From positions 1 to 20,737 of IMG/VR virus record IMGVR_UViG_3300033144_004186: a stretch of DNA of 20,737 nucleotides; one strand, 5' to 3'. Made by a program: the position numbers and the translations under genes. The stretch is from a virus. The notes below the pieces were generated by a model. It had not been told where the DNA came from and made no database searches. It saw nothing but the letters and a program-made list of their open reading frames with translations. Each line of letters starts with the position of its first letter. Position 1 is the first letter of the stretch. Shown one piece after another: positions 4,743 through 20,312 of the stretch.

Positions 4743-5544
4743 AAAAAGAATTATAAATAAGAGTTTCTTAATTAAATCTACAAAAGTAGATACGGAAAAA
4801 AGAGAGTTTAGTGCTACTATTACTGATTCTTCTGTTGATAGAGATAAAGAGGTTCTTTTACCAGATGGTATGAATATATCTGAGTTCAAGAAGAATGGAA
4901 TAATATTATTCAATCATGACAAAAATTTACCATTAGGAACTGTTTTATCATTAAGAAGAAAAGGTGAAAGTTGGGTAGCAAAGGGAAAATTAGCTGAACA
5001 AGGAACATCACCAGAGATAGACAGTGTGTGGAGTTTGGTGAGTCAAGGAATTCTAAAAGCAATTAGTATTGGATTTGTTAATCAAGAAGGTAGACAACCT
5101 ACTAAATTAGATATTAAAAAATTTGGCAAAAATGTTAATTATGTTATATCAAAGTTTGAGTTAATTGAATTTAGTATTGTTGCAGTTGGATCCAATCCAA
5201 ATGCTTTAATAAGCAGTTGTAAAGAATTAGATCTTGACCCAAAAATTATTATGGGTGATGGATATAAAGATTTAGAAGATACAATTGAAATGACAAAAGA
5301 AGAGACAGATGATGTATTAAAAGATGTTGATAATGAGAAAGAAAAAATAATAAAAGAAGCAATTGAAGAATTAGAAGATGTTGAGATAAAAGAAGATATT
5401 GAGGAGAAAATAGTAGAAATTGTGGAAAATGAAAAAACCTTAAACGTTAAGAGTAATAGGAGAGTAGATATTAAAAAGGTTATGAAGTATTTTATAGAAG
5501 AAGTTAAAAAAGAGATTAAGAGAAGTAAGGGAAATTTATTTTAA
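4735..5544 (+). CDS. Prohead protease, HK97 gp4 family
   Basis: A 269-residue maturation protease that removes the N-terminal delta region of the capsid protein after prohead assembly. The ATG at 4735 was chosen because GAGGAAG (4722-4728) sits 6 bases before it; in-frame starts at 4720 (GTG) and 4729 lack this spacing. Family blocks: VDRDKEVLLPDG at 34-45, ILFNHD with the predicted catalytic His61, LKAISIGF with Ser111, and ELIEFSIVAVGSNPNAL at 142-158. The catalytic domain ends near residue 165. Residues 180-269 are a Glu/Lys-rich extension with heptad-like spacing, longer than in typical 200-225 residue members, possibly with a scaffolding role (inference). The gene overlaps the portal gene by 8 bases. 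Confidence 0.92.
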   Translation: MSEKRIINKSFLIKSTKVDTEKREFSATITDSSVDRDKEVLLPDGMNISEFKKNGIILFNHDKNLPLGTVLSLRRKGESWVAKGKLAEQGTSPEIDSVWSLVSQGILKAISIGFVNQEGRQPTKLDIKKFGKNVNYVISKFELIEFSIVAVGSNPNALISSCKELDLDPKIIMGDGYKDLEDTIEMTKEETDDVLKDVDNEKEKIIKEAIEELEDVEIKEDIEEKIVEIVENEKTLNVKSNRRVDIKKVMKYFIEEVKKEIKRSKGNLF

Positions 5545-5680
5545 CCAAAAATATATTTTTTATATTGTGAGAATAAAGATATACTTTGGAGTAATTACCC
5601 AAGGCTAGATCAGAATTAGACATATAAGATAATATTTTTAACTATAGATAAAAAATGTTATTTTAATTAAGGAGCCAATA
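5545..5680 (+). promoter_or_regulatory. 136-base leader upstream of the capsid gene
   Basis: This is the longest intergenic stretch in the head region. It starts with an AT palindrome (5547-5560, five A, TATA, five T), holds the element TTTGGAGTAATTA at 5585-5597 that recurs before both tail-tube genes, and has several AT-rich -10-like strings (TATACT 5580-5585, GATAAT 5628-5633) without a convincing -35 box. It ends with the strong ribosome site AAGGAG at 5669-5674, six bases from the ATG. It probably carries a promoter or an mRNA processing or stability element for the capsid gene. The exact start of transcription cannot be read from sequence. Confidence 0.45.
5585..5597 (+). promoter_or_regulatory. 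Shared leader element, copy 1 (TGGAGTAAT)
   Basis: TTTGGAGTAATTA, about 85-95 bases before the capsid ATG. The core TGGAGTAAT is repeated in the leaders of both tail-tube genes and was not noticed in any other intergenic gap here. It contains GGAG, a Shine-Dalgarno core, but no start codon follows at a useful distance. Confidence 0.4.
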
Positions 5681-6904
5681 ATGGCTAAAGAAAAAGAGAA
5701 TAAAGAAGTTGAGATTATAGAAGACGAAAAGACAGAAGACGAAAAAGAGATAAAAGTAGCTAAAGAAATGGCAGCTACATTCGCTGCTGAGATGAAAAAG
5801 TCTCTTGCTGAACAAAAAGAAGAAGTAACAGAAAAGGTTATTAAGAGTTATAGAGTATCAGTAAAGGACGTTCCTTGTGAAGGTTTTGAAAGCAAAAGTC
5901 ATATGCTCTGTTTTGCTAAAGAGTTTGTTCCTAAACATATGTTAGAAAAGTTTAATAATAAAGCAGCATTATCAACTTATTCAAGCATTTCAGATTCTGC
6001 TGGTGAGATGGGTTCTCTTGATCCTATCGATGCACACGGAATACTGGCTTCATCTGTAGCGTTGTATCCAAGTTATCTTGAGAGGACATTACAAGTCCCA
6101 ACTCTGCAGTCAGTATCTACGTTCGTTGACAGGACACAGCTGAATACCGCTTACGTGATTGGTGAATCAACTGCTATTACACAGAGTCAGCCAAAGTTCA
6201 CAACAAGAACTGTAACACAATACAAAATAGCAACATTATCTCCTGTTACAAATACTTTACTCCGCTTCGGAACTTTAGCTTCTGTAGCGACAGAAGTATT
6301 GGATAGTTGTGCTCAAGCTATTTCTCAAAAGATACAGTATCTTCTGTTGGGGGATGCGGATGGGACCAGTGATACTACGGATGGTGGGATGACCTCAATA
6401 CCTAACACTATTAATGGTGTAGCAAGTAATAGTGCGGAGTATACAGTCACAGGTACTTGGAGTGATATTACTAATACAGATATTAGTTCTATTGTTTATC
6501 AGACTAGTTCTTGGGCAAAACCTTCTAATTTCGCGTGGATTTGTCATCGCAACTTTGCTGGAATTCTAGAAGGTGTGGCTCGAACATTGGGTGGAAACAC
6601 TTACGAAATACAGACTGGAACTGCTCCAAGGGCTATGCTTTATGGGTATCCAATACTTTTCGCAGACCAAATGCCAGCTTCAGCGAGCACAACTCGTAGT
6701 GGCTTAATTTTTGGTGATCTCAGTGGTTGTTGTGCTACTGCTTCAACAGGTGGAACTTTCATAGATTTTAACGAAGGTCAGTGGTTTGACCAAGACACAA
6801 GTGCTCTTCGTGTCATTAAACATTATGGTCAGAACATTTATCAACCTGGAACTAACGGAACAACTACTTCAATCGTATGTGTTAATTTTACGAGTGAGTC
6901 TTAG
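5681..6904 (+). CDS. Major capsid protein, HK97 fold, with N-terminal delta-like region
   Basis: A 407-residue shell protein. Residues 1-60 are Lys/Glu-rich and helical, as in the scaffolding delta domain of HK97-type capsid proteins, which the upstream protease would remove, probably near residues 90-110 (around NNKAALSTYSSISDSAG). The mature part shows the HK97 pattern: the stretch LERTLQVPTLQS, then VIGESTAITQSQPKFT, a long spine-type helix around 195-225 (LLRFGTLASVATEVLDSCAQ), an insert near 228-265, and the late block YGYPILFADQMP at 321-332 followed by IFGDLSG. Codons end in C more often than in neighbouring genes, a sign of selection for expression. Start: AAGGAG six bases before the ATG. 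No crosslinking Lys/Asn pair can be assigned. Confidence 0.93.
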   Translation: MAKEKENKEVEIIEDEKTEDEKEIKVAKEMAATFAAEMKKSLAEQKEEVTEKVIKSYRVSVKDVPCEGFESKSHMLCFAKEFVPKHMLEKFNNKAALSTYSSISDSAGEMGSLDPIDAHGILASSVALYPSYLERTLQVPTLQSVSTFVDRTQLNTAYVIGESTAITQSQPKFTTRTVTQYKIATLSPVTNTLLRFGTLASVATEVLDSCAQAISQKIQYLLLGDADGTSDTTDGGMTSIPNTINGVASNSAEYTVTGTWSDITNTDISSIVYQTSSWAKPSNFAWICHRNFAGILEGVARTLGGNTYEIQTGTAPRAMLYGYPILFADQMPASASTTRSGLIFGDLSGCCATASTGGTFIDFNEGQWFDQDTSALRVIKHYGQNIYQPGTNGTTTSIVCVNFTSES

Positions 6905-6924
6905 ACAAGGACAAGTTCTTAATG

Positions 6925-6965
6925 GGATGGGGATTAATTTCCCCATCCTATATCATATTATTTTT
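6925..6965 (+). terminator. Hairpin after the capsid gene
   Basis: A 9-bp GC-rich stem (GGATGGGGA 6925-6933 with TCCCCATCC 6940-6948) closes a 6-base loop. The T-run (6961-6965) comes 12 bases later, not directly after the stem, so it may be a weak terminator or an mRNA-stabilising hairpin. Either would favour capsid over downstream expression. It is the strongest inverted repeat noticed in an intergenic region here. Confidence 0.5.
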
Positions 6966-6979
6966 AGAAAGAGAGAAAA

Positions 6980-7357
6980 ATGAAAAATAAAGATGAAGAT
7001 TATGATATACCTACTTTTGGTGAACAATATCAAGTAATTTTACTTGAGCCTTGGAGTGGGAACAATATAGGTGATACTGTTACAGTTTACAGAGGAATGT
7101 ATAACACTCTTCTAAATCTCAAAAAAGCTATAGCAGTTAATGATTATGAAGATGTAAACAAAGATATGAAATTGTTGATAACAGCAAGAAATAATGAGAT
7201 AGAGAATAAAGAGTTATTAGATGAAAATATAAAACTAAGAGAAGAGATAAAAAAATTGAAAAAAACTATCGGGAAAAAAGATTTAGAATATAAGAACAAA
7301 ATGATGCTAAAGAAAGATATAAGAACTAAATCTAAAAAAAAGAAAAAGGATAGATAA
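6980..7357 (+). CDS. Small protein after capsid gene, beta-type N-terminus and coiled-coil tail
   Basis: 125 residues, function unknown. Residues 17-55 read YQVILLEPWSGNNIGDTVTV and then YRGMYNTLLNLKKAIAV. This matches the general pattern of a short domain common in small phage head proteins (hydrophobic strand, a Gly-Asp turn with IGDTV, a helix, then 'AIAV'). Residues 70-125 form a Glu/Lys-rich likely coiled coil ending in a Lys-rich tail. In related phages this position can hold decoration or head-accessory proteins. The ribosome site AGAGAG precedes the ATG. It overlaps the next gene by one base (TAATG), suggesting coupling. Confidence 0.65.
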   Translation: MKNKDEDYDIPTFGEQYQVILLEPWSGNNIGDTVTVYRGMYNTLLNLKKAIAVNDYEDVNKDMKLLITARNNEIENKELLDENIKLREEIKKLKKTIGKKDLEYKNKMMLKKDIRTKSKKKKKDR

Positions 7358-7605
7358 TGAAGACATCCAGCATTGTGGGTATTATTAGTTTAATTATTAC
7401 AATTGGAGGTTTATTAGTTGGATTTGGTAGCTTTGTTGGGACAACGAATACTTCAATAAAATATGTTGAAGAGAAAATTACTGTAGTAGGCGAAGATGTA
7501 AAAGATATTAAAGATCTAATGATTGACCATATTGTAATTTCTAAAAAAAGAGTTGCTAAGTTGGATGAAGAGGAGAAAGAAAATGGATCTCATAGAATTG
7601 AGTGA
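7357..7605 (+). CDS. Small single-helix membrane protein
   Basis: 82 residues. Residues 5-27 (SIVGIISLIITIGGLLVGFG and on) form one clear transmembrane helix rich in Gly, Ile and Leu with no charge. Residues 33-75 are a charged amphipathic helix, IKYVEEKITVVGEDVKDIKD, probably a coiled coil. The ribosome site is AAAGGA at 7345-7350. The 3' end overlaps the connector gene by 23 bases. A membrane protein inside a head-connector operon is unusual. Candidates are a holin or holin-like protein, a superinfection-exclusion factor, or an inner-membrane anchor; no lysis enzyme is nearby to support the first. Single-helix-plus-coil proteins exist near lysis genes (XhlA type), but there the helix is C-terminal. 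Confidence 0.65.
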   Translation: MKTSSIVGIISLIITIGGLLVGFGSFVGTTNTSIKYVEEKITVVGEDVKDIKDLMIDHIVISKKRVAKLDEEEKENGSHRIE

Positions 7606-8167
7606 TTTAGAAGTATATTTAAAAAGCACAATAAGTGATGGGAATCCATCATATAATACTGCTGATGAGGCATTATATTCTTTTTTGATCACAGCAATGA
7701 GTGAATATGCTGAAGCCTATTGTGGTAGAACATTCTCTGCTACTGATTATACTACTAGACTGGATGGTAATGGTTGCAAAGATTTAATATTACCACAAGC
7801 TCCAATTATTTCTCTTACATCAGCTACTTATATTGATATAGATGAGAATGAAACAACAATAGATACAGATAATATTGTTATAGAATATGATGAAGGTATT
7901 TTATACAAATCTACTGTTTGGGCAAAAGGGAGACATAATGTTAATATTACTTATAGTGCTGGTTATAGTAGTATTCCTGATGGTCTCAAAAGCATAATAT
8001 GTAGTGGTGTAGTTTCAGCAAAGAATAGAATAGGAACTACAGCTGGAATTAAAAAAGAGACACTTGGTGATTATGAATATGAATTAGTTGATAATAGCAG
8101 CACAACAACTGAGCAATTAGATTTTAATTCAAAATTGGATCTTTACAAATTGGGAGATGTACAATAA
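7583..8167 (+). CDS. Head-tail connector / adaptor, HK97 gp6-like
   Basis: 194 residues from the ATG at 7583, chosen because AGAGGAG (7569-7575) lies 7 bases upstream; a start at 7553 would overlap more and lacks a ribosome site. It begins MDLIELSDLEVYLKSTI and carries the family pattern: a first helix, then LITAMSEYAEAYCGRTFSAT, the block LILPQAPIISLTSATYID, a strand VNITYSAGYSSIPDGLKSII, and a helical end. These proteins form a ring under the portal. Gene order (capsid, connector, closure, gp10-like, completion) agrees. The C-terminus is longer than the minimal 100-residue members and looks partly disordered. Confidence 0.85.
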   Translation: MDLIELSDLEVYLKSTISDGNPSYNTADEALYSFLITAMSEYAEAYCGRTFSATDYTTRLDGNGCKDLILPQAPIISLTSATYIDIDENETTIDTDNIVIEYDEGILYKSTVWAKGRHNVNITYSAGYSSIPDGLKSIICSGVVSAKNRIGTTAGIKKETLGDYEYELVDNSSTTTEQLDFNSKLDLYKLGDVQ

Positions 8168-8482
8168 ATGAAACCTACTAGCCTATTAAAAACAACATTT
8201 TATACTTACAGGAGTGTTGAAACAGTAGATAGCGGGGGTAGTCCAATCTCTGCTTTCTCTATAGAGAATACTCTACTTGGAAATATTCAACCATATAGAA
8301 GCTCAGAAGCAGTTAAAGCTGGAAGAGAATGGAGCAACAGCATGTTAAAAATATATTGTGCTGATGACTCTGATATAGATATGAGTGATAGAGTGTATTA
8401 TAATAATGATTTTTATAATATTGTTGAAAAAGAAATATGGAATGATACTTATATGATGTTAGTTTGTTCAAGAGTGGACTAA
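8168..8482 (+). CDS. Head closure / head-tail joining protein (SPP1 gp16-like)
   Basis: 104 residues, the usual length for this small beta-barrel family. Pattern seen: TVDSGGSPISAF, an internal GNIQPYRSSEAVKAGREWSN, the strand block MLKIYCADDSDIDMSDRVYY, and NIVEKEIWNDTYMMLVCSRV at the end. In SPP1-type phages gp16 plugs the head after packaging and docks the tail. The start directly follows the preceding stop, with GGGAGA (8152-8157) as ribosome site. The stop TAA overlaps the next ATG by one base. Confidence 0.85.
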   Translation: MKPTSLLKTTFYTYRSVETVDSGGSPISAFSIENTLLGNIQPYRSSEAVKAGREWSNSMLKIYCADDSDIDMSDRVYYNNDFYNIVEKEIWNDTYMMLVCSRVD

Positions 8483-8793
8483 TGGCAACAAGATTTATAC
8501 CAAATAAAAGATTAAAGAATGAGATTATAACTTCTATAAGTAGAGCATTAGATAAATCTGCTATAATATATAAGGAAGAAGCAGAAAAGGTAACTCCTGT
8601 TACGTCTGGGCATTTGAAAAGAAGTTATGACATTCTAGATTCAGAGGAATTAAAGAGAAGAGTAGTGAATAATGCAGAATATGCTGCCTGCGTAGAATTT
8701 GGCACTCTTCATCAAACTGCTCAACCTTTTATGAGGAGTTCTCTTGCTTCCTCGAAAAAAAAGATTTTAAATGAATTTAAGGATATATTATAG
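8482..8793 (+). CDS. HK97 gp10-family neck protein
   Basis: 103 residues from ATG 8482 (TAATG overlap with the closure gene); an in-frame TTG at 8464 is less likely. The family signature is clear: an N-terminal helix ending AIIYKEEAEKVTPVTSGHLK, then NNAEYAACVEFGT at about residues 64-76 and AQPFMRSSL at about 81-89. HK97 gp10-like proteins act at the head-tail interface or in tail completion. Its place between head closure and DUF3168 genes is the standard order. Confidence 0.88.
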   Translation: MATRFIPNKRLKNEIITSISRALDKSAIIYKEEAEKVTPVTSGHLKRSYDILDSEELKRRVVNNAEYAACVEFGTLHQTAQPFMRSSLASSKKKILNEFKDIL

Positions 8794-9203
8794 TGAAATC
8801 ACAACAGTTATTAGTTGATGCTCTTTATCTTGCTATTAAAAACTCTATTGGATCTTTAATTGGGAATAGAGTATATGAAAATCTCGCTAAACAAGATTGT
8901 TCATTACCTTGTTGTGTGTTTAGTGTTATATCTGATACACCAGAAGGTTGGTTCGTAACTGACTCATTAGATGCTGATGTTCAAGTTGTTATATATGGAT
9001 GGAAGAGATTAGGATCTAAAGCTGTTAGAATTATATCATATACTCTATTAGAAGATTTACATAGAGCAGAAATAGATATTGATGGTTATGAATATAGTTT
9101 TGTAGAGTCAACTGTAAGAGGACTTACATCAGTTGAGGGTGATACTATTCGTGTCAGGTCTCAATATAATATAAGAGCAGCAGAAGAAGTGGATTTATCA
9201 TAA
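8793..9203 (+). CDS. Tail completion / terminator protein, DUF3168-like
   Basis: 136 residues, close to family length. It starts at GTG 8793, overlapping the previous stop, with AAGGA about 9 bases before. Pattern: an N-terminal helix (LLVDALYLAIKNSIGSLIGN), RVYENLAKQDCSLPCCVFS, a central strand-helix block VQVVIYGWKRLGSKAVRIIS, and a C-terminal strand SQYNIRAA. Homologues (SPP1 gp17 type) cap the tail tube and join it to the neck. The Cys pair at LPCC is unusual, since family members more often have Leu-Pro-Tyr or Leu-Pro-Phe there. Confidence 0.82.
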   Translation: MKSQQLLVDALYLAIKNSIGSLIGNRVYENLAKQDCSLPCCVFSVISDTPEGWFVTDSLDADVQVVIYGWKRLGSKAVRIISYTLLEDLHRAEIDIDGYEYSFVESTVRGLTSVEGDTIRVRSQYNIRAAEEVDLS

Positions 9204-9265
9204 TTGCTCATAAATGGAGTAATTATAATTATAATGTTAAGTATAATGATTAAGGAGTAAAAAAA
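9204..9265 (+). promoter_or_regulatory. Leader of tail-tube gene 1 with shared element, copy 2
   Basis: TGGAGTAATTA at 9215-9225 repeats the capsid-leader element. It is followed by perfect TATAAT strings at 9224-9229, 9230-9235 and 9242-9247. A TTGCTC at 9204-9209 is a possible -35 box, but the spacing (14 or 20 bases) is not ideal. The leader ends with AAGGAG (9252-9257), 8 bases from the ATG. Confidence 0.4.
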
Positions 9266-9673
9266 ATGGCAAGAACAGTATACGATAGTGCTACTTTAAC
9301 AATTGGAGGAGACTCATATGAATGCAGTGATTTTGCGATATCAATTCAGCAAAATACAACCCCAGACTGGGAAGCATTCACAAAAGATTATGTTCAGAAC
9401 GCTCCTACAACCTATTCCTGGACAATGACGGGTTCTAGTATCCTTGATAGCGCAGCAGGCGCAAATATTGCAACATGGTTGCCAGTTGCCGGTGGAGTAG
9501 CTAATCCTACACCTGTGACAGTAGTTGCTGATACAGCAGATAGTGGTGGGCCTATTTACACTGGGACTTCTAACTGTACCATTTCATGTGATATTGATGT
9601 TTCCAGAGGAGACTATGGGAAGATTAGCCTCTCGATAAAAGGCGGGGGTGCGCTCACAGTTACTGAGTCCTAA
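9266..9673 (+). CDS. Major tail tube protein, copy 1
   Basis: 135 residues, beta-rich, beginning MARTVYDSATLTIGG. Family-like blocks: SIQQNTTPDWEAFT, PTTYSWTMTGSS, GANIATWL and DIDVSRGDYGKISLSIKG. Small tube proteins of this kind stack as hexamer rings around the tape measure. It lies between tail completion and chaperone genes, exactly where siphophages put the tube protein. It shares about half its residues with the next gene. A 10-residue insert (about 73-95) separates the two. The strong ribosome site and C-ending codons fit high copy number. Assignment is from position and fold-like pattern; the sequence family is divergent. Confidence 0.75.
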   Translation: MARTVYDSATLTIGGDSYECSDFAISIQQNTTPDWEAFTKDYVQNAPTTYSWTMTGSSILDSAAGANIATWLPVAGGVANPTPVTVVADTADSGGPIYTGTSNCTISCDIDVSRGDYGKISLSIKGGGALTVTES

Positions 9674-9727
9674 GCATTAAAGTATTTAAATGATTGGAGT
9701 AATGATTTTTTTTAAGGAGCCAATATA
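9674..9727 (+). promoter_or_regulatory. Leader of tail-tube gene 2 with shared element, copy 3
   Basis: ATTGGAGTAATGA at 9693-9705 is the third copy of the shared element. An eight-T run follows, then TTAAGGAGCCAATA, which matches the capsid ribosome-site region almost exactly (TTAAGGAGCCAATA before ATG 5681). The element lies only 33 bases from the ATG, too close to be a simple -35 box. Confidence 0.4.
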
Positions 9728-10105
9728 ATGGCAATTAAAGTATATGATAGCGGTGCTGTCACAATAGCGGGCACAACTTTTGAAGTGAGTAATTTTACAG
9801 TTTCAATTCAGCAGGGGACCACTCCAGATTGGGAGTATTTCACAGCAGATAATATCGTGAATTATCCTACCACCTATTCCTGGACGGGTTCATTCAGTGC
9901 TACTCTAGACGGGACCTACGGAGCAAGAGTGGCAACATGGCTTTCTTCTGAAGTAGAATTAATATTTACTGCTCTGGCAGGAGCACCAGTTTATACTGGA
10001 AACTGTACGGTGTCAGCAGATATTGATGTTTCCAGAAGCAATTATGGTATGGTGAACTTCACCTGTAAAGGCACAGGCCCTCTCACCATTGATGAGACAG
10101 TCTAA
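9728..10105 (+). CDS. Major tail tube protein paralogue, copy 2
   Basis: 125 residues, MAIKVYDSGAVTIAG, with the same ordered blocks as copy 1: SIQQGTTPDWEYFT, PTTYSWTGSFSA, GARVATWL, and DIDVSRSNYGMVNFTCKG. About half the residues match, with a deletion in the middle loop. It could form a mixed tube with copy 1, build a distinct zone such as tube terminus or tip ring, or be a tube decoration protein. Its own strong ribosome site (AAGGAG 9714-9719) and well-adapted codons suggest abundant expression, so it is not a decaying copy. Confidence 0.72.
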   Translation: MAIKVYDSGAVTIAGTTFEVSNFTVSIQQGTTPDWEYFTADNIVNYPTTYSWTGSFSATLDGTYGARVATWLSSEVELIFTALAGAPVYTGNCTVSADIDVSRSNYGMVNFTCKGTGPLTIDETV

Positions 10106-12730: not shown

Positions 12731-13786
12731 ATGGCAATTGTGGAATTAGCAGATAGTGGTCGAGAACACAGAACAATAGAGGTATGGACAGCCACTATGC
12801 ACTATCATATGCTCCAATTAGATTACAGGAACAGAGGAGGAATATTAATGAACCCTGCGAATGGGAATGTTAATGGGAATGGAACTCAATTGGGATATAT
12901 AGAATTGCCTTATGAGGGAATGCCTTATGGAGCTAATACGGATCTTGTGTGCGTGGATATTGATGAGAATCCTATTTCTCAAGGAAATCTATTAAATGGG
13001 AATGATAGAATATTAGATGTAGTTTATACCTGGTCAAATGACTCTAGATATTATGATGCCCCACGAGCTAATGCAGCATCATCTTGGAGAATATGGTGGA
13101 ATGGGAGTCTTGAGTCTGCTACTACAGATGCTTATGTTAATTTGGAAAATAAGTTAATATATGGTGGTGAAGATGGAGATAATAAAACTTATATTGTAGA
13201 CTGGATGAACCAGTGGTTTGAGTATAAATATGGAACAGAATGGACTAAATATCAAACAGATAATGCTGTTGATCCCGCTAATCCTACTGATGAAGAATGG
13301 GATGTTATAAGAGGTGCTCAGCAACCTTTCTTAACCAGACACGCAAGCGAAGTCCCAGAACTTGAGATGAGATATCCAAGAGTCTTTTTTAATTTTACTT
13401 TTTTTACATCCAAAATATTAAACTTTACACCATACCTGGGATTTATAAATAGCACAGATTTTATTACTAAAATATATGAAAGAAGAGAAGAGGCTCTACA
13501 ACACCAATTAAAGAATGGAGCTTATGCCACAAATGATAAAGTAGCCGGAATTGAGAGATTTATGTTAGTAGATATCCAACACACAGAAAGAACTTCTTCT
13601 CTACACGAATATACTTTAATTTGGGAAGAGAATGTTCAGGGGTGGAATAATTATGACCCTGATGATTATACTACTTATCTGGATGTTGAATCTATTGGGG
13701 GGATTGATACTAGCCGGTATCAATCAGTAGATTTTTATTCAATGCTTTCTGGAGCTGACGATGTAGAAACCACTATACCATATTAA
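12731..13786 (+). CDS. Unrecognised distal tail protein
   Basis: 351 residues, the first gene after the tape measure, where Dit-like baseplate hub proteins usually lie. No family recognised. Features: a Trp/Tyr/Asp-rich composition, RTIEVWTATMHYHMLQLDYR near the N-terminus, a Gly/Asn loop (NPANGNVNGNGTQLGY), WRIWWNGSLES near 120, a segment FFNFTFFTSKILNFTPYLGF near 221-240, and a C-terminal strand-type end. No signal peptide or membrane helix is convincing. It could be a divergent distal tail protein or hub. The TAA at 12717-12719 and AAGG at 12718-12721 set the start. Confidence 0.6.
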   Translation: MAIVELADSGREHRTIEVWTATMHYHMLQLDYRNRGGILMNPANGNVNGNGTQLGYIELPYEGMPYGANTDLVCVDIDENPISQGNLLNGNDRILDVVYTWSNDSRYYDAPRANAASSWRIWWNGSLESATTDAYVNLENKLIYGGEDGDNKTYIVDWMNQWFEYKYGTEWTKYQTDNAVDPANPTDEEWDVIRGAQQPFLTRHASEVPELEMRYPRVFFNFTFFTSKILNFTPYLGFINSTDFITKIYERREEALQHQLKNGAYATNDKVAGIERFMLVDIQHTERTSSLHEYTLIWEENVQGWNNYDPDDYTTYLDVESIGGIDTSRYQSVDFYSMLSGADDVETTIPY

Positions 13787-14361: not shown

Positions 14362-14376
14362 TTCGGAGAGAGAATC

Positions 14377-17157
14377 ATTGTTAATGAATACATACAAGAA
14401 TGGTATCATAACCAGAATTGCTGGGAATATGGAGACTGGGATACAATAGTAAAAGGGAAAGAGATTTCTCACCTCCATTTTGAGGACTTGAGAAAAAGAA
14501 TATTTCTAGCTACTTATCCTCACGCAGGTCGAAAATTAACCACTGAAATTTATGAAAGTTATTTTCAGGTGAAGTGGGCATACGGTAGTGCTCCAGAACT
14601 AGAAGATAGACAGTATCAAGATGCTGATGGGAATACAATTACTCTTGAAGCTGGAGAAACAAGATGGGATACAAATGGAACTGACCCTTGGATGGGTGAT
14701 GATAGATCAGACCCACGCCCGCCGGGCTTTGTAACCTTTTATGATGGAGATTTCTACCTGCCAGATGGCAGATATATTCCAGCAATTTTATTTACCAACA
14801 ATGACACTTCTGACCAAGGTATTCTTAATTCAGGTTCTTTAATTAGACCAATAAACCCAGATACTGGCGAGTTTAACGAAGCGAGATTTTCTCAAGTCCC
14901 CAATTATAATAGGTATTACACTTTTGATAAAAATGCTAATACTAAAATATATGACAGATTAAAAAAGATACAGTTCCCAGAAACGGATAGTGATTATTAT
15001 AATATCGCTATCTCTGCTCATCGTTATTTCCCTCGCGACACTGATCCTAAAGAAGCATCTTCATATCCAATATATTGTGTAGATAATAAGTATTATGTAT
15101 GGGTATATAAAGGTAAAGTAGAGAAATTTAAAACTGATATAACAAATATAGACGCTCAAGGTCCAATAGGTGATTTTAGTATCAATTATGGAACTCTGGG
15201 TAATGGAGTAAAAATAGGTTATGTTCCTTGGCCGAGACAAACAACATACACAAAAATGGAGGGGAGTCATCCTCCTACAAAATCTGGAGAAGATGGATTT
15301 GTAGAAGCACCAGATCAACCATACACAGATTCAAAATTTAATGACTCATATCAATCAGCAATAGAAAGAGTAGTTGAGCTTGGGAACTGGGCGTGGGATG
15401 TAGAAAACGATACAGATTACCAGACTAACTGGCTCCGAAATAATAATTATTTTGATACTGTTAATAATAGATGGTTATATGAAACAGAAAAAGGAGTCTG
15501 GTTAAGTAATAAATATGCTGCTCAAGATAATATGGCTTTACTTAAAGATGAAAATTGGGGTTGTAATGGAGCAGCAATTGAATTATTATTAAAAAATCTG
15601 GGAGAAGAAGCATATGATTGGTATTGGGATACAGAAACTCCAAAAAAACTTCACGCTATGGAAAAAATGAAGGAAAAAGATAGCCATTTAGTTCATCAAC
15701 CAGATAATTTAAATATTTTATATCCTGACCCAATTGGCTGTTGGAGAAGAACTTGGAAAAATACATTTGGTAGAAAACCAGATACAAAATATTGGCCTTC
15801 TGAATTAGGAACTCCACCAAATTACCAAATAGATAATAGAATGATTATTACTCAAGAACAATATGATGCTGCTGATTTTAATTTCAAAGAAAAATGGTAT
15901 AGAACTATTACATCTATTGAACAATTTAATGATGATTATTATGCTGCATATGGAGAGTATCTTAACCCATCTGATTTTGGACAATATGGAGATGAATTAG
16001 ATGTAGAGAATAATGCTGAAGGTGTTCAATTCATATTAGATAATTTTACTCCAGGAACAGAAACAGCAATTGATACAGATTATGATGACTCAACACAATT
16101 ACCTGCTGAATATTTTATTGTAAAAAATCATCACCCTGTTCAAATAATTTATACAGAGATAAAAAATGAAAATGATGAAATAACTGGATATAAAAATCAC
16201 GGACAATATGAGTTAAAAACACAATTGTTAATTGATATGAGAAGTGTTTTATTACAATTAAGATATCATAAAGTCCATATGGGAGTTGGAGTTGGGCTGG
16301 GATATGCCGGGGGCTATACTCTATGGGAGGGTGATGGATCACTGGGGGCAGGGACTCCTCCAAAAAAAACATATGAAGAAGCCTATCAGGCAGCAATAAA
16401 ATTTATTGAAGCGATAGAATTAGACCCTCCAACCACTACCGCTCAATACCTTGCCAATCCAGATGCTTTTAGGGTTGATTTGGGAAGAAGATCTGGGGAA
16501 TCGTCCTGGATACTCGCTTCTGAGTTGATTAAAGGTATGAGCGGAGAATGGGGTTATTATAACGGGCAATCCTATATAGCTTTTTATAATATGAGGGCCA
16601 TGGTCCTCGATGGTATACCGGGATTCTCCGAAGATTTTTATGTTGTAGACGTGATACAAAGAAGTCATTGTATTATTATACCTTCTTCTGATTTAATCCC
16701 CGTTGGTGCTACAATGTATCTGCGAATAAAATATATAAAAACTGGTGGGGCAACAGATGGCAAGGAACTAATCGCCTTCGGAAAGAACTTCAGGGGAACT
16801 GATGAATACAAATATATATATTTAAAAGTGGGTATTCCGCAGGGACAAGATAATGAATGGCACTTGGTAGAAGATACTGATAATTGGGCCGGATCAGATG
16901 TCAATGCTGGAACAGGGACAACTTGTTACTATTCCACAACAAACAATTGGTTTTACAGCACCGATTGGGATTATATACCAGAATCTGTCTGGGTAAGAGA
17001 TGTGTGGAATAATTATGAATGGGAAAGTTGTGACAACCCATCTACATATGTTACAAGCCCAGAAATATGGCATCCAGATTTAGATACAGATAATACAGAT
17101 ACACCATTATGGCATTTACCACCACATTTAGATAGTCAAGGGAATAACGCAGAATGA
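14377..17157 (+). CDS. Large unrecognised tail/tip protein, apparent non-AUG start
   Basis: About 926 residues. The first ATG/GTG/TTG codon in frame is TTG 14488, but the frame is open back to the TAA at 14359 and reads coherently as EYIQEWYHNQNCWEYGDWDT, then IVKGKEISHLHFEDLRKRI, which looks like a continuing domain: an 'I.a.h...LR..I' helix common at the N-terminus of phage fibre proteins. ATT 14377 (or ATC 14374) follows GGAGAG at 14365-14370 at good spacing, so an AUU start is proposed. Composition is Trp/Tyr/Asp/Asn-rich with no poly-Ser. The middle part (15470-16250) is very AT-rich (about 25% GC) while the part around 16260-16560 is near 45%, suggesting module swapping. It ends by a 4-base ATGA overlap with the next gene. 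Probably a tail-tip or receptor-binding component; function unassigned. Confidence 0.65.
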   Translation: MVNEYIQEWYHNQNCWEYGDWDTIVKGKEISHLHFEDLRKRIFLATYPHAGRKLTTEIYESYFQVKWAYGSAPELEDRQYQDADGNTITLEAGETRWDTNGTDPWMGDDRSDPRPPGFVTFYDGDFYLPDGRYIPAILFTNNDTSDQGILNSGSLIRPINPDTGEFNEARFSQVPNYNRYYTFDKNANTKIYDRLKKIQFPETDSDYYNIAISAHRYFPRDTDPKEASSYPIYCVDNKYYVWVYKGKVEKFKTDITNIDAQGPIGDFSINYGTLGNGVKIGYVPWPRQTTYTKMEGSHPPTKSGEDGFVEAPDQPYTDSKFNDSYQSAIERVVELGNWAWDVENDTDYQTNWLRNNNYFDTVNNRWLYETEKGVWLSNKYAAQDNMALLKDENWGCNGAAIELLLKNLGEEAYDWYWDTETPKKLHAMEKMKEKDSHLVHQPDNLNILYPDPIGCWRRTWKNTFGRKPDTKYWPSELGTPPNYQIDNRMIITQEQYDAADFNFKEKWYRTITSIEQFNDDYYAAYGEYLNPSDFGQYGDELDVENNAEGVQFILDNFTPGTETAIDTDYDDSTQLPAEYFIVKNHHPVQIIYTEIKNENDEITGYKNHGQYELKTQLLIDMRSVLLQLRYHKVHMGVGVGLGYAGGYTLWEGDGSLGAGTPPKKTYEEAYQAAIKFIEAIELDPPTTTAQYLANPDAFRVDLGRRSGESSWILASELIKGMSGEWGYYNGQSYIAFYNMRAMVLDGIPGFSEDFYVVDVIQRSHCIIIPSSDLIPVGATMYLRIKYIKTGGATDGKELIAFGKNFRGTDEYKYIYLKVGIPQGQDNEWHLVEDTDNWAGSDVNAGTGTTCYYSTTNNWFYSTDWDYIPESVWVRDVWNNYEWESCDNPSTYVTSPEIWHPDLDTDNTDTPLWHLPPHLDSQGNNAE

Positions 17158-20100
17158 GAATCTGGTATTTACATATGAGTTCAGAAATGGTTGAGGATTT
17201 ACAATATCCTGAATTGTGTTCATATTACTTTACAGTTTATAATTCAGGTCAATATTTTGAAGACTCTGGGTGGCAAACTTCTCATGATTGGTCAATTAAA
17301 ATAGGTAATGATGATGATTTATGCGATTTAATTAACCCAAGCAATGAGGCATATGGTCTCTTTAATTGGGAGTTCAGTATCAAAGTAAAAGATGTAAATG
17401 GTAATGAGTCTCCAGAGTCAGTGAAATTGAGTATAGACCCAGAAGCACAAGAATTACCAGATTGTTATGTTGAAGGTATTTATACTGCTTTAAGAGTTTG
17501 TCAAGCAGATACTTTACCAGAGCAAGATTGTGATACGTCTAGTGGAGCATATCATTTAGAATTAGATACACAAGATGGTGATTATAATTCAAATGATACA
17601 ATTCATATTTTAACATCTGATATAGAAACATTATTTCCAGACCTTCCTTGTGTTGTTCAATATAATAATAAATGTTATTATTTACCCGAAAATTATAATT
17701 ATGCTAAAGTAGACAATCCAGAGAAATTAGTTGAAGGTGAGATTAAAATACTTAAACTTAATTCATCAGGTTGTTATACACCTGCTCCATATCCAAATCC
17801 TTCTTGTGACTGTATGAATGAGTGTTGGGATGCTGACCCATCTTGCTATAATATAGATGAGTTTTTACTTGACTCAAGCACCTTCTTGCACAATGATATG
17901 TTAGCTCATTGGTATCTAAATGATAGAAGAGATGATGATATAGTATACGAGAATATCCATTACATAAATGGAACAAGCAATAATAATACTGACCAAATGG
18001 ACCAAAATCCGAGTGATGATATCTCAATTCATTTTAATGGAACAAATGATTTTATCGATTTTACACTTTATGGTAATGATGAGTGGAGTTATACATCTCT
18101 ATATTCACCTGAAGATTATCCAAATCCCAGTTATTATGAGCCTGAAAACCCTTCTGCTATAGAGAATCCATCAGTAGTATCTGTTGATTATTATACTCAA
18201 GAAGAACTAGATGCTTTATATGGAGAAGACCCATCTGTCCCAGAAACTTTTCTTTATGATCATAGATTTTATGATAATAAAGATATGACATATGCTCTTT
18301 GGTTCAAGGCAGATGATAGCTCAAATGGAGTGATTATAGCAGATGGCAAAGATACGGGATTTACTCTACTCTGGGAAGATAATAGCATTAAACTTATAAG
18401 CAACGCTGACCCCTCTGACTTGACCGTAGTTAATAGTTTAAGCTCTAAACAATGGATTCACGTCATTATAACATTTGATTATAACAATCCATCTCACAGT
18501 GGTGTAATTTATGTTAATAATGTAGAAATGACATCTTTTAATAATACATTTTACACTACTGATGACAATTTAATGGCAGGAGTAGGAACAGGAGTTATTG
18601 AGTTCTTTAAGGGATTTCTTGCTGATATTAGAATTTATAATAAGATATTAAACAATACAGAGAGAAGCAGAATATATAATTCTGGGGAAATAACATATGA
18701 AACTAATTTTCCAGATTATGACTATGAAAAAAGCAGATGTAAAGGATATGAAGTATTAAGAGACCTTGATGCTTATAATACTTGTCTTAATGACTGCAAT
18801 AGTAATTGTCATTATACTTCATCTTGTTATAACTTCAATCCAAGTGATGAAGCAAACGCAAATCCAAGTGATGATTGGATATATGTATATCATACATGCG
18901 AGGAATGTTGGGATGTCGTAAATCCTGAAACAGGTTGGGATTGTGTGAATAACCCAGAAACAGCAGTAGAAATGACTTGTTTAGAAAGTATAAGAACAGC
19001 AGGAACAAACTACGGGCGAATGATACCATACACATTTCAAAATGTTAATAATAATGATACAACCTTACCACTTATAATAACCAATGCTGCTGATTGTTCA
19101 GGTGTATATAATGCTAATGACCCAGCACTACAATCTCTATTATGTAAAAGTTTTGAAACGCTAAGTTTTGAGAATGTAATAACAATCAGACTTTTCGCCA
19201 AAAATGGAACAGCAGATGTGGCCGTTAATGGTTATACTTTAGATTGGCAAATCCGGGCACAGACAACACTCGGTTATGATACTTATTCTTATCAGTTTTC
19301 TCCATTAGCACTTTACAATTGGGCACAAAAAAATAATACATATGAAATGTATGGTGGAGTTGGACAGTGGAACTTACCTTATATCACTGTCAAAAATCAA
19401 ACGCCTGGAATGGATTGGCATATGATTATTTACTGTTTTTGTAGATCGATTTGTTCTGGTGAACCTGAGACTGGGAACCAACCACTTGCAATTCCGGCAA
19501 CATTATGTGATATATCTGACACACCAGATACTCAATTATGGATATTAAAAAATGCTATAAGAACAGGTGATAATATATTCAAATATAATGATATCTGTTA
19601 TTCTATAAACAAAAATGATGCTGGAGCAATCGCTGCTAACTTATTGCCAGCAACAGGGATTACATTATTAAACTACTTGACAAAAGAATATGATACTTGT
19701 GAAGAATGTTTGGCCGTAAGTAGTTCAAGCTCTACAAGTAGTAGTTCTCAAAGTTCAAGTTCAATGAGTTCAATGAGTTCAAGTTCAATGAGCAGTTCAA
19801 GTAGTTCAAACTCAAGTAGTAGTTCAAGTAGTTCAAACTCAAGTAGTAGTTCTGTCACCCCATCTTGTTTAGAATGTAGTGGTTCTATACCTAATATTAT
19901 AGAAGTGACATATTCTGGTGTGAATTGGTGCTCAGGAGAAGGCCCAGGTACGCTTAATGGGACATTTGAGTTAACTTATGACCAAGACTACTCTGATGAA
20001 ATAGCTCTCGGTTCCAATATTGAATGGGCTTGCGTTTGGACTAATTTTGATGATGATGTTTTTAAGATTCTTTTCATAGGCAAAGATACTAATGGGTATT

Positions 20101-20312
20101 ACCCACCTGATAATACTTATATATATTGTTCTATGGGCGAAGACCCAGAAGTTAGTGATATATTCCTTTTGGAAGTAACAGAAGGTTCGTATTCATGGAA
20201 TAGGTTCGATTGTAATGACAAATATACTAGCGGGAACAATGGATTCTCCATCATTCATTGTGACCCATATAAAGGATATGGAGGTAGTGTAAGTATAAAT
20301 TGGAACCCTTAA
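17154..20312 (+). CDS. Fibre-like protein: Cys-rich modules, LamG domain, poly-Ser linker, C-terminal Cys domain
   Basis: 1052 residues, starting by ATGA overlap with AAGGGA 10 bases upstream. Domains in order: an Ig-like N-terminus ending GLFNWEFSIKVKDVNGNES (about 67-85); a Cys module with KCYYL at 174 and CDC at 218-220; a LamG-type jellyroll at about 249-515 (MLAHWYLNDRR, ISIHFNGTNDFIDF, MTYALWFKADD, QWIHVIITFD, GFLADIRIYNKIL); a Cys-rich section about 530-650; a second Cys module (C785, ICYS at 815, CEEC at 849-852); a poly-Ser linker at 856-900; and a C-terminal domain, CLECSGSIPNIIEVTYSGV. LamG domains bind carbohydrates, so cell-surface glycan recognition is a fair inference. Asn/Asp-Pro-Ser occurs 12 times. 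Probably a receptor-binding or host-surface adhesion protein. Confidence 0.75.
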   Translation: MRIWYLHMSSEMVEDLQYPELCSYYFTVYNSGQYFEDSGWQTSHDWSIKIGNDDDLCDLINPSNEAYGLFNWEFSIKVKDVNGNESPESVKLSIDPEAQELPDCYVEGIYTALRVCQADTLPEQDCDTSSGAYHLELDTQDGDYNSNDTIHILTSDIETLFPDLPCVVQYNNKCYYLPENYNYAKVDNPEKLVEGEIKILKLNSSGCYTPAPYPNPSCDCMNECWDADPSCYNIDEFLLDSSTFLHNDMLAHWYLNDRRDDDIVYENIHYINGTSNNNTDQMDQNPSDDISIHFNGTNDFIDFTLYGNDEWSYTSLYSPEDYPNPSYYEPENPSAIENPSVVSVDYYTQEELDALYGEDPSVPETFLYDHRFYDNKDMTYALWFKADDSSNGVIIADGKDTGFTLLWEDNSIKLISNADPSDLTVVNSLSSKQWIHVIITFDYNNPSHSGVIYVNNVEMTSFNNTFYTTDDNLMAGVGTGVIEFFKGFLADIRIYNKILNNTERSRIYNSGEITYETNFPDYDYEKSRCKGYEVLRDLDAYNTCLNDCNSNCHYTSSCYNFNPSDEANANPSDDWIYVYHTCEECWDVVNPETGWDCVNNPETAVEMTCLESIRTAGTNYGRMIPYTFQNVNNNDTTLPLIITNAADCSGVYNANDPALQSLLCKSFETLSFENVITIRLFAKNGTADVAVNGYTLDWQIRAQTTLGYDTYSYQFSPLALYNWAQKNNTYEMYGGVGQWNLPYITVKNQTPGMDWHMIIYCFCRSICSGEPETGNQPLAIPATLCDISDTPDTQLWILKNAIRTGDNIFKYNDICYSINKNDAGAIAANLLPATGITLLNYLTKEYDTCEECLAVSSSSSTSSSSQSSSSMSSMSSSSMSSSSSSNSSSSSSSSNSSSSSVTPSCLECSGSIPNIIEVTYSGVNWCSGEGPGTLNGTFELTYDQDYSDEIALGSNIEWACVWTNFDDDVFKILFIGKDTNGYYPPDNTYIYCSMGEDPEVSDIFLLEVTEGSYSWNRFDCNDKYTSGNNGFSIIHCDPYKGYGGSVSINWNP
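19719..19853 (+). repeat. Second poly-serine coding tract
   Basis: 45 codons, nearly all Ser with single Met, Asn, Gln and Thr interruptions. It includes a perfect 27-bp direct tandem repeat (19794-19820 and 19821-19847) coding for nine residues. AGT/AGC and TCA/TCT codons are mixed. It separates the CEEC module from the C-terminal domain in the fibre protein. Confidence 0.85.

Follow-up and report, generated by a model that had tools for sequence, protein, structure and literature searches.

Phage T7 carries a class III promoter of 23 bp ahead of gene 10 that is read by T7 RNA polymerase, and in any phage the distance between a promoter and the ATG is free. In T4, the late promoters lie 5' of the late genes and have the core TATAAATA at -13 to -6, as described in the accessible part of PMC1524935. 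For a Listeria phage, the accessible part of PMC12282133 describes late promoters without a consensus -35, and structural genes with internal starts and terminators. Here we describe a nine-base word, TGGAGTAAT, in the leaders of the capsid gene and of two probable tail tube genes of another, uncultured phage. The word would probably serve as a small on-switch or as a leader signal for the most-needed proteins, but it is missing from the sole relative known.

The window analyzed here is the whole of IMG/VR virus record IMGVR_UViG_3300033144_004186 (20,737 bases), possibly a genome fragment, and covers structural genes of a tailed phage. It encodes terminase, portal, protease, an HK97-type capsid, head-tail connectors and a tail terminator, together with two paralogous probable tail tubes, a probable tape measure and tail proteins. 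The identification of portal, protease and capsid is firm, and that of terminase and connectors is good. We also observed long tracts of serine-rich low-complexity sequence with KSSSSS repeats, both in a small ORF (758-1096) and in a large LamG-domain protein (17154-20312). A 126-nt gap (14362-14487) stands before an 889-aa ORF called from a TTG, a start that may be miscalled. No tRNA was found in the record. The genes that carry the word in their leaders, and the copies themselves, are as follows.

5587-5595, + strand: TGGAGTAAT, copy in the leader of the major capsid protein (MCP) gene, exact match
5681-6904, + strand: MCP, HK97-type
9215-9223, + strand: TGGAGTAAT, copy in the tube1 leader, exact match
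9266-9673, + strand: probable tail tube 1 (tube1)
9695-9703, + strand: TGGAGTAAT, copy in the tube2 leader, exact match
9728-10105, + strand: probable tail tube 2 (tube2), paralogue of tube1 (54% identical)

Gene order, size and the mutual identity of 54% suggest that tube1 and tube2 are probably tail tubes. A weak profile match was obtained for tube1 only (phrog_4574, major tail protein, E 0.014). The AlphaFold model of tube1 is uninformative (pLDDT 32), and when PDB sequences were searched with the alignment of the two tubes, a single match came up, which we judged to be chance.

An exact search of the 20,737-base record returned these three copies, all of them on the + strand and in leaders, and no copy within coding regions or on the opposite strand. 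This confirmed all three coordinates of the sequence-only reading, which had placed the same core in the three leaders and had seen it in no other gap. Its figure of roughly 250 intergenic bases also agrees with the 252 nt of the three leaders; all gaps together amount to 681 nt. When up to one mismatch was allowed, we found 20 sites in the whole record compared to 8.45 expected, with none in any leader beyond the three exact copies. One such site, at 8475, overlaps the start of the stopper/neck gene. From the start of the word to the ATG there are 94 nt for MCP, 51 nt for tube1 and 33 nt for tube2. A start-Glu-stop reading of the word (ATG or TTG, GAG and TAA at all three copies) was dropped because no SD precedes it.

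The sharing had been called very unlikely by chance, and we assessed it in several ways. Whole-record dinucleotide shuffles gave a mean of 0.31 copies of TGGAGTAAT, and none of 100 shuffles reached three. In per-gap shuffles (n = 5000), any 9-mer occurred in at least three of the 11 gaps in 2.9% of cases, and a 9-mer with at least three G/C in 0.06%. Random placement would put three sites all within the 681 gap bases with a probability of 3.5e-5. In five AT-rich control phage modules, no 9-mer was shared by at least three gaps, which is a weak check at n = 5, with less gap sequence in four of the five (187-415 nt vs 681 nt). The sharing thus exceeds chance on evidence that is fair but post hoc: the shuffles uphold the earlier claim, and the choice of the word after the sequence was seen tempers it. 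In conclusion, TGGAGTAAT is a real, probably non-random word common to three high-demand leaders.

Next to these counts stands the composition of the three carrier genes. Their GC3 values are 0.35, 0.31 and 0.26, in comparison to 0.18-0.23 for the rest of the seven genes whose leaders measure at least 40 nt; by chance, three given genes would rank as the top three of seven once in 35 times. A GC3 of 0.25 is found in two genes that lack such leaders, so that the margin of MCP is small. The high GC3 is consistent with highest demand and agrees with the earlier proposal that the carriers encode the most-needed products. The two adjacent tail-tube-like paralogues (9266-10105) both have raised GC3.

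Tentatively, we take TGGAGTAAT for the short core of a promoter or for an element at the transcript start, in either case without a -35, on the model of T4-type late promoters, which neither need nor have one; no consistent -35 was found at the three copies. The word would be a cis-acting element marking separate transcript starts before three high-copy virion genes, either within a short late promoter core specific to the phage or as a sequence straddling the start site, and would need no -35. A phage-directed polymerase would recognise it and initiate a few bases downstream, so that the capsid and tube mRNAs would gain their own supply beyond read-through from the terminase-portal region. 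We infer that the word works as DNA, that it is a site of transcript initiation and that it is read by a factor of the phage; the 20.7 kb record, which shows only structural genes, sets the scope for any phage sigma factor or RNA polymerase. By reading of the tube2 leader, a start 6-8 nt after TGGAGTAAT would leave a short leader with an intact SD.

Sigma-70 readings of the word were tried and were rejected or proved weak, an extended -10 among them. As a -35 box, it has no good -10 at 15-19 nt, and at tube2 the -10 would coincide with the SD and the start codon. Read as a -10 (AGTAAT), the word is poor, and upstream of it a good -10 exists at MCP only. The three copies have neither a -10 nor a -35 in common (joint p 0.07 for the -10, 0.22 for -10 plus -35), and a -10 at fixed spacing after a -35 was not found at the three copies. 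The sequence-only reading had argued from the variable distance to the ATG (33-95) against a simple -35 box and in favor of an mRNA element. The argument from distance does not hold, since promoters lie at any distance from the ATG; the rejection of the -35 box stands, owing to the missing -10 and to the proximity of the tube2 start codon. A further and bolder reading, which we consider unlikely, is that a start element of the lineage's own gives exactly the capsid and tube genes private transcripts, as a three-member regulon that sets virion stoichiometry; this reading concerns one co-directional structural cluster in a lineage without close sequenced relatives.

To place the word within the leaders, we list the neighboring features.

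5567-5586, + strand: block just upstream of the MCP copy of TGGAGTAAT, identical at 15 of 20 positions in the relative L142 (GTGAGAATAAAGATATACTT)
5625-5665, + strand: A/U hairpin of 15 pairs, ends one base before the MCP SD (predicted fold)
5667-5680, + strand: TTAAGGAGCCAATA, MCP SD block, its GCCA able to pair with TGGC at the start codon
6922-6951, + strand: hairpin of 12 pairs after the MCP stop codon (predicted fold)
9250-9257, + strand: TTAAGGAG, tube1 SD
9712-9725, + strand: TTAAGGAGCCAATA, tube2 SD block, with a start-codon hairpin as in MCP

The ribosome-site sequence already seen to be common to MCP and the second tube is TTAAGGAGCCAATA, and the predicted hairpin between GCCA and the TGGC of ATGGC encloses the ATG in both (MCP 5674-5685, tube2 9719-9732).

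One true relative was found, the 6761-base contig L142, whose portal and MCP are 58% and 51% identical in full-length alignments. Its MCP leader measures 135 nt, compared to 136 nt here. Conservation in a related leader had been set beforehand as a test of the word, and the outcome was negative: TGGAGTAAT is absent from the MCP leader of this sole relative, even with two mismatches allowed. The contig is without tube genes, and the comparison covers the MCP leader only. The best conserved part of that leader is the block at 5567-5586, which is borderline by shuffling (p 0.05-0.09). It contains a -10-like TATACT (5580-5585), one base upstream of the MCP copy of TGGAGTAAT, which we count in favor of the promoter reading. 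The counterpart place in L142 scores as TTCACA-N17-AATACT; this L142 stretch holds 5 promoter-like sites vs 4.5 expected, so that the match alone means little. The absence of the word from the L142 leader argues against the promoter reading, and so does the fact that the conserved upstream block is only borderline and is MCP-specific.

Predicted hairpins flank MCP in both phages. The A/U hairpin before the SD has a z of -2.7 here and of -2.2 in L142 (2479-2514), and the hairpin after the stop codon a z of -3.3 here and of -4.05 in L142 (3758-3788, 13 pairs). The latter differs in sequence between the phages; its position and stem strength are kept. These data suggest a partial terminator or an mRNA 3' stabiliser that isolates the capsid mRNA, and with a strong hairpin after it in both phages MCP looks like its own transcription unit. 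L142 matches from the portal to the gene after MCP and then carries different genes (5096-6761), which points to head and tail modules with different partners.

Searches for further relatives gave little. We found no confirmed relative among viral contigs (queries MCP, TerL, tube1, the tube1/tube2 alignment and portal) and none among genome contigs (portal alone and a two-sequence portal alignment). Among phages, there was nothing, or only portals or terminase at up to 32% identity (MCP, TerL, portal, the 12731-13783 protein, tube2 and the L142 MCP), and plasmids reached at most 26% with the portal query. A portal alignment with eight distant phages was too divergent as a query. A degenerate MCP pattern returned 15 stretches, with L142 as the true relative and the others at 25-38% to MCP; a candidate found with a degenerate portal pattern (L128) was rejected, as it has no similarity to any protein of the record. 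A collection scan for TGGAGTAAT followed by TTAAGGAG within 5-35 nt gave at least 119 stretches, a lower bound that allows no count against chance and that we judged uninformative. Among the 119 matches listed, 39 lie ahead of an ORF that starts with ATG and spans at least 60 aa, two carry a second copy of TGGAGTAAT on the matched strand, and none shows likeness to this phage beyond one portal at 25%. A literature search for the word yielded, among the matches listed, no title on a phage leader.

Chance combined with descent could also account for the shared word, and we regard this as nearly as likely as the promoter-core reading, which leaves it possible and still on the unlikely side. Duplication of the tube gene would have carried related leaders along, MCP and tube2 would have exchanged leader pieces, the MCP match would in part be luck in leaders that are AT-rich and G-skewed, and the word would have no function. 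The tubes are indeed paralogues, and gapped alignments of the leaders exceed shuffles for MCP-tube2 (p 0.003) and tube1-tube2 (p 0.006), with the aligned blocks close to the SD. The tube1-tube2 alignment pairs the word of tube2 with the SD of tube1 and not with the tube1 word; it is the GGAGTAA of the tube2 copy that aligns best with this SD region. Once the last 22 nt are removed, no pair of the three leaders remains significant (p 0.067-0.154), so that part of the likeness may stem from leader duplication or exchange. Two other pairs among the 21 also score (portal-tube1, p 0.008; orf6980-chaperone, p 0.014), and such p values are therefore not rare among these leaders. The 2.9% of shuffles with some 9-mer in three or more gaps and the lack of conservation in L142 likewise fit descent and luck. 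However, the third codon positions of tube1 and tube2 are only 49% identical, and a neutral leader word should have decayed over such a distance; MCP and the tubes are not paralogues, and the exclusive placement at the three leader genes of highest GC3 is left unexplained.

Two further explanations act on the mRNA. The word may be directed at the ribosome: its GGAG would be a second, SD-like standby site further upstream, or an SD that has been displaced, and would increase the loading of mRNAs in high demand. The core of TGGAGTAAT is GGAG, and GGAGTAA also forms the SD of tube1 at 9254, where the tube2 word aligns. Across the seven leaders of at least 40 nt, GGAG occurs outside SDs in these three copies and nowhere else. 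We nonetheless consider this unlikely: the word is longer than ribosome pairing needs, its 33-94 nt to the ATG are unconstrained, and a standby site requires no fixed nine-base sequence. In addition, five of the nine bases of the MCP copy are paired in a small predicted hairpin (CTTTGG...CCAAGG). A standby site would be an accessible, unpaired stretch ahead of a structured SD, and each of the three predicted folds pairs part of the word, in a different way; no RNA structure holding it is common to the three leaders in these folds, and Rfam gave no match. The lack of a common fold also weighs on a target for mRNA processing or regulation, by a GGAG-cutting endonuclease like T4 RegB or by a phage RNA-binding protein, which we consider improbable. 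As with RegB sites, GGAG lies in untranslated leaders, but according to the accessible part of PMC3014915 strong sites read GG*AGRAYARAA, a flank from which every copy of TGGAGTAAT departs by a T after GGAG, and the late transcripts of T4 are all resistant to RegB. Of the mRNA-element options proposed earlier, what survives is thus the GGAG core with its SD-like reading; the missing common fold and the RegB flank speak against the rest.

If the promoter-core reading is true, TGGAGTAAT would add a promoter or leader element to a phage group for which the literature titles listed describe none, and shared leader words would offer a cheap predictor of high-copy virion genes in uncultured phages. 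Repeated late-gene signals are well known as a kind, and only the sequence and the lineage would be new. We regard the word as ordinary to mildly interesting, of a known kind if functional and not conserved in the one testable relative.

In comparison to the described systems, the host-type late promoters of Listeria phage CKA15 (extended -10, no consensus -35) resemble this locus in that structural genes have their own starts, terminators follow the tail tube and chaperone genes, and promoter motifs lie upstream of MCP; according to the accessible part of the source, those are SigA -10-like motifs that were mapped experimentally, whereas here a -10-like hexamer exists at MCP only. The T7 class III promoter, in turn, is similar in that a repeated promoter stands at the capsid gene and a terminator follows, and differs in its length of 23 bp and in being read by T7 RNA polymerase. 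T4-type late promoters, which depend on gp55 and gp45, differ in their core: TGGAGTAAT contains G and is unrelated to TATAAATA, no TATAAATA-like core was found at the copies, and no gp55-like factor is visible in this structural-gene fragment. With these promoters TGGAGTAAT shares a short word without a -35, a free distance to the ATG and, apparently, a place at late genes; all three copies precede virion genes, in a fragment that shows only structural genes.
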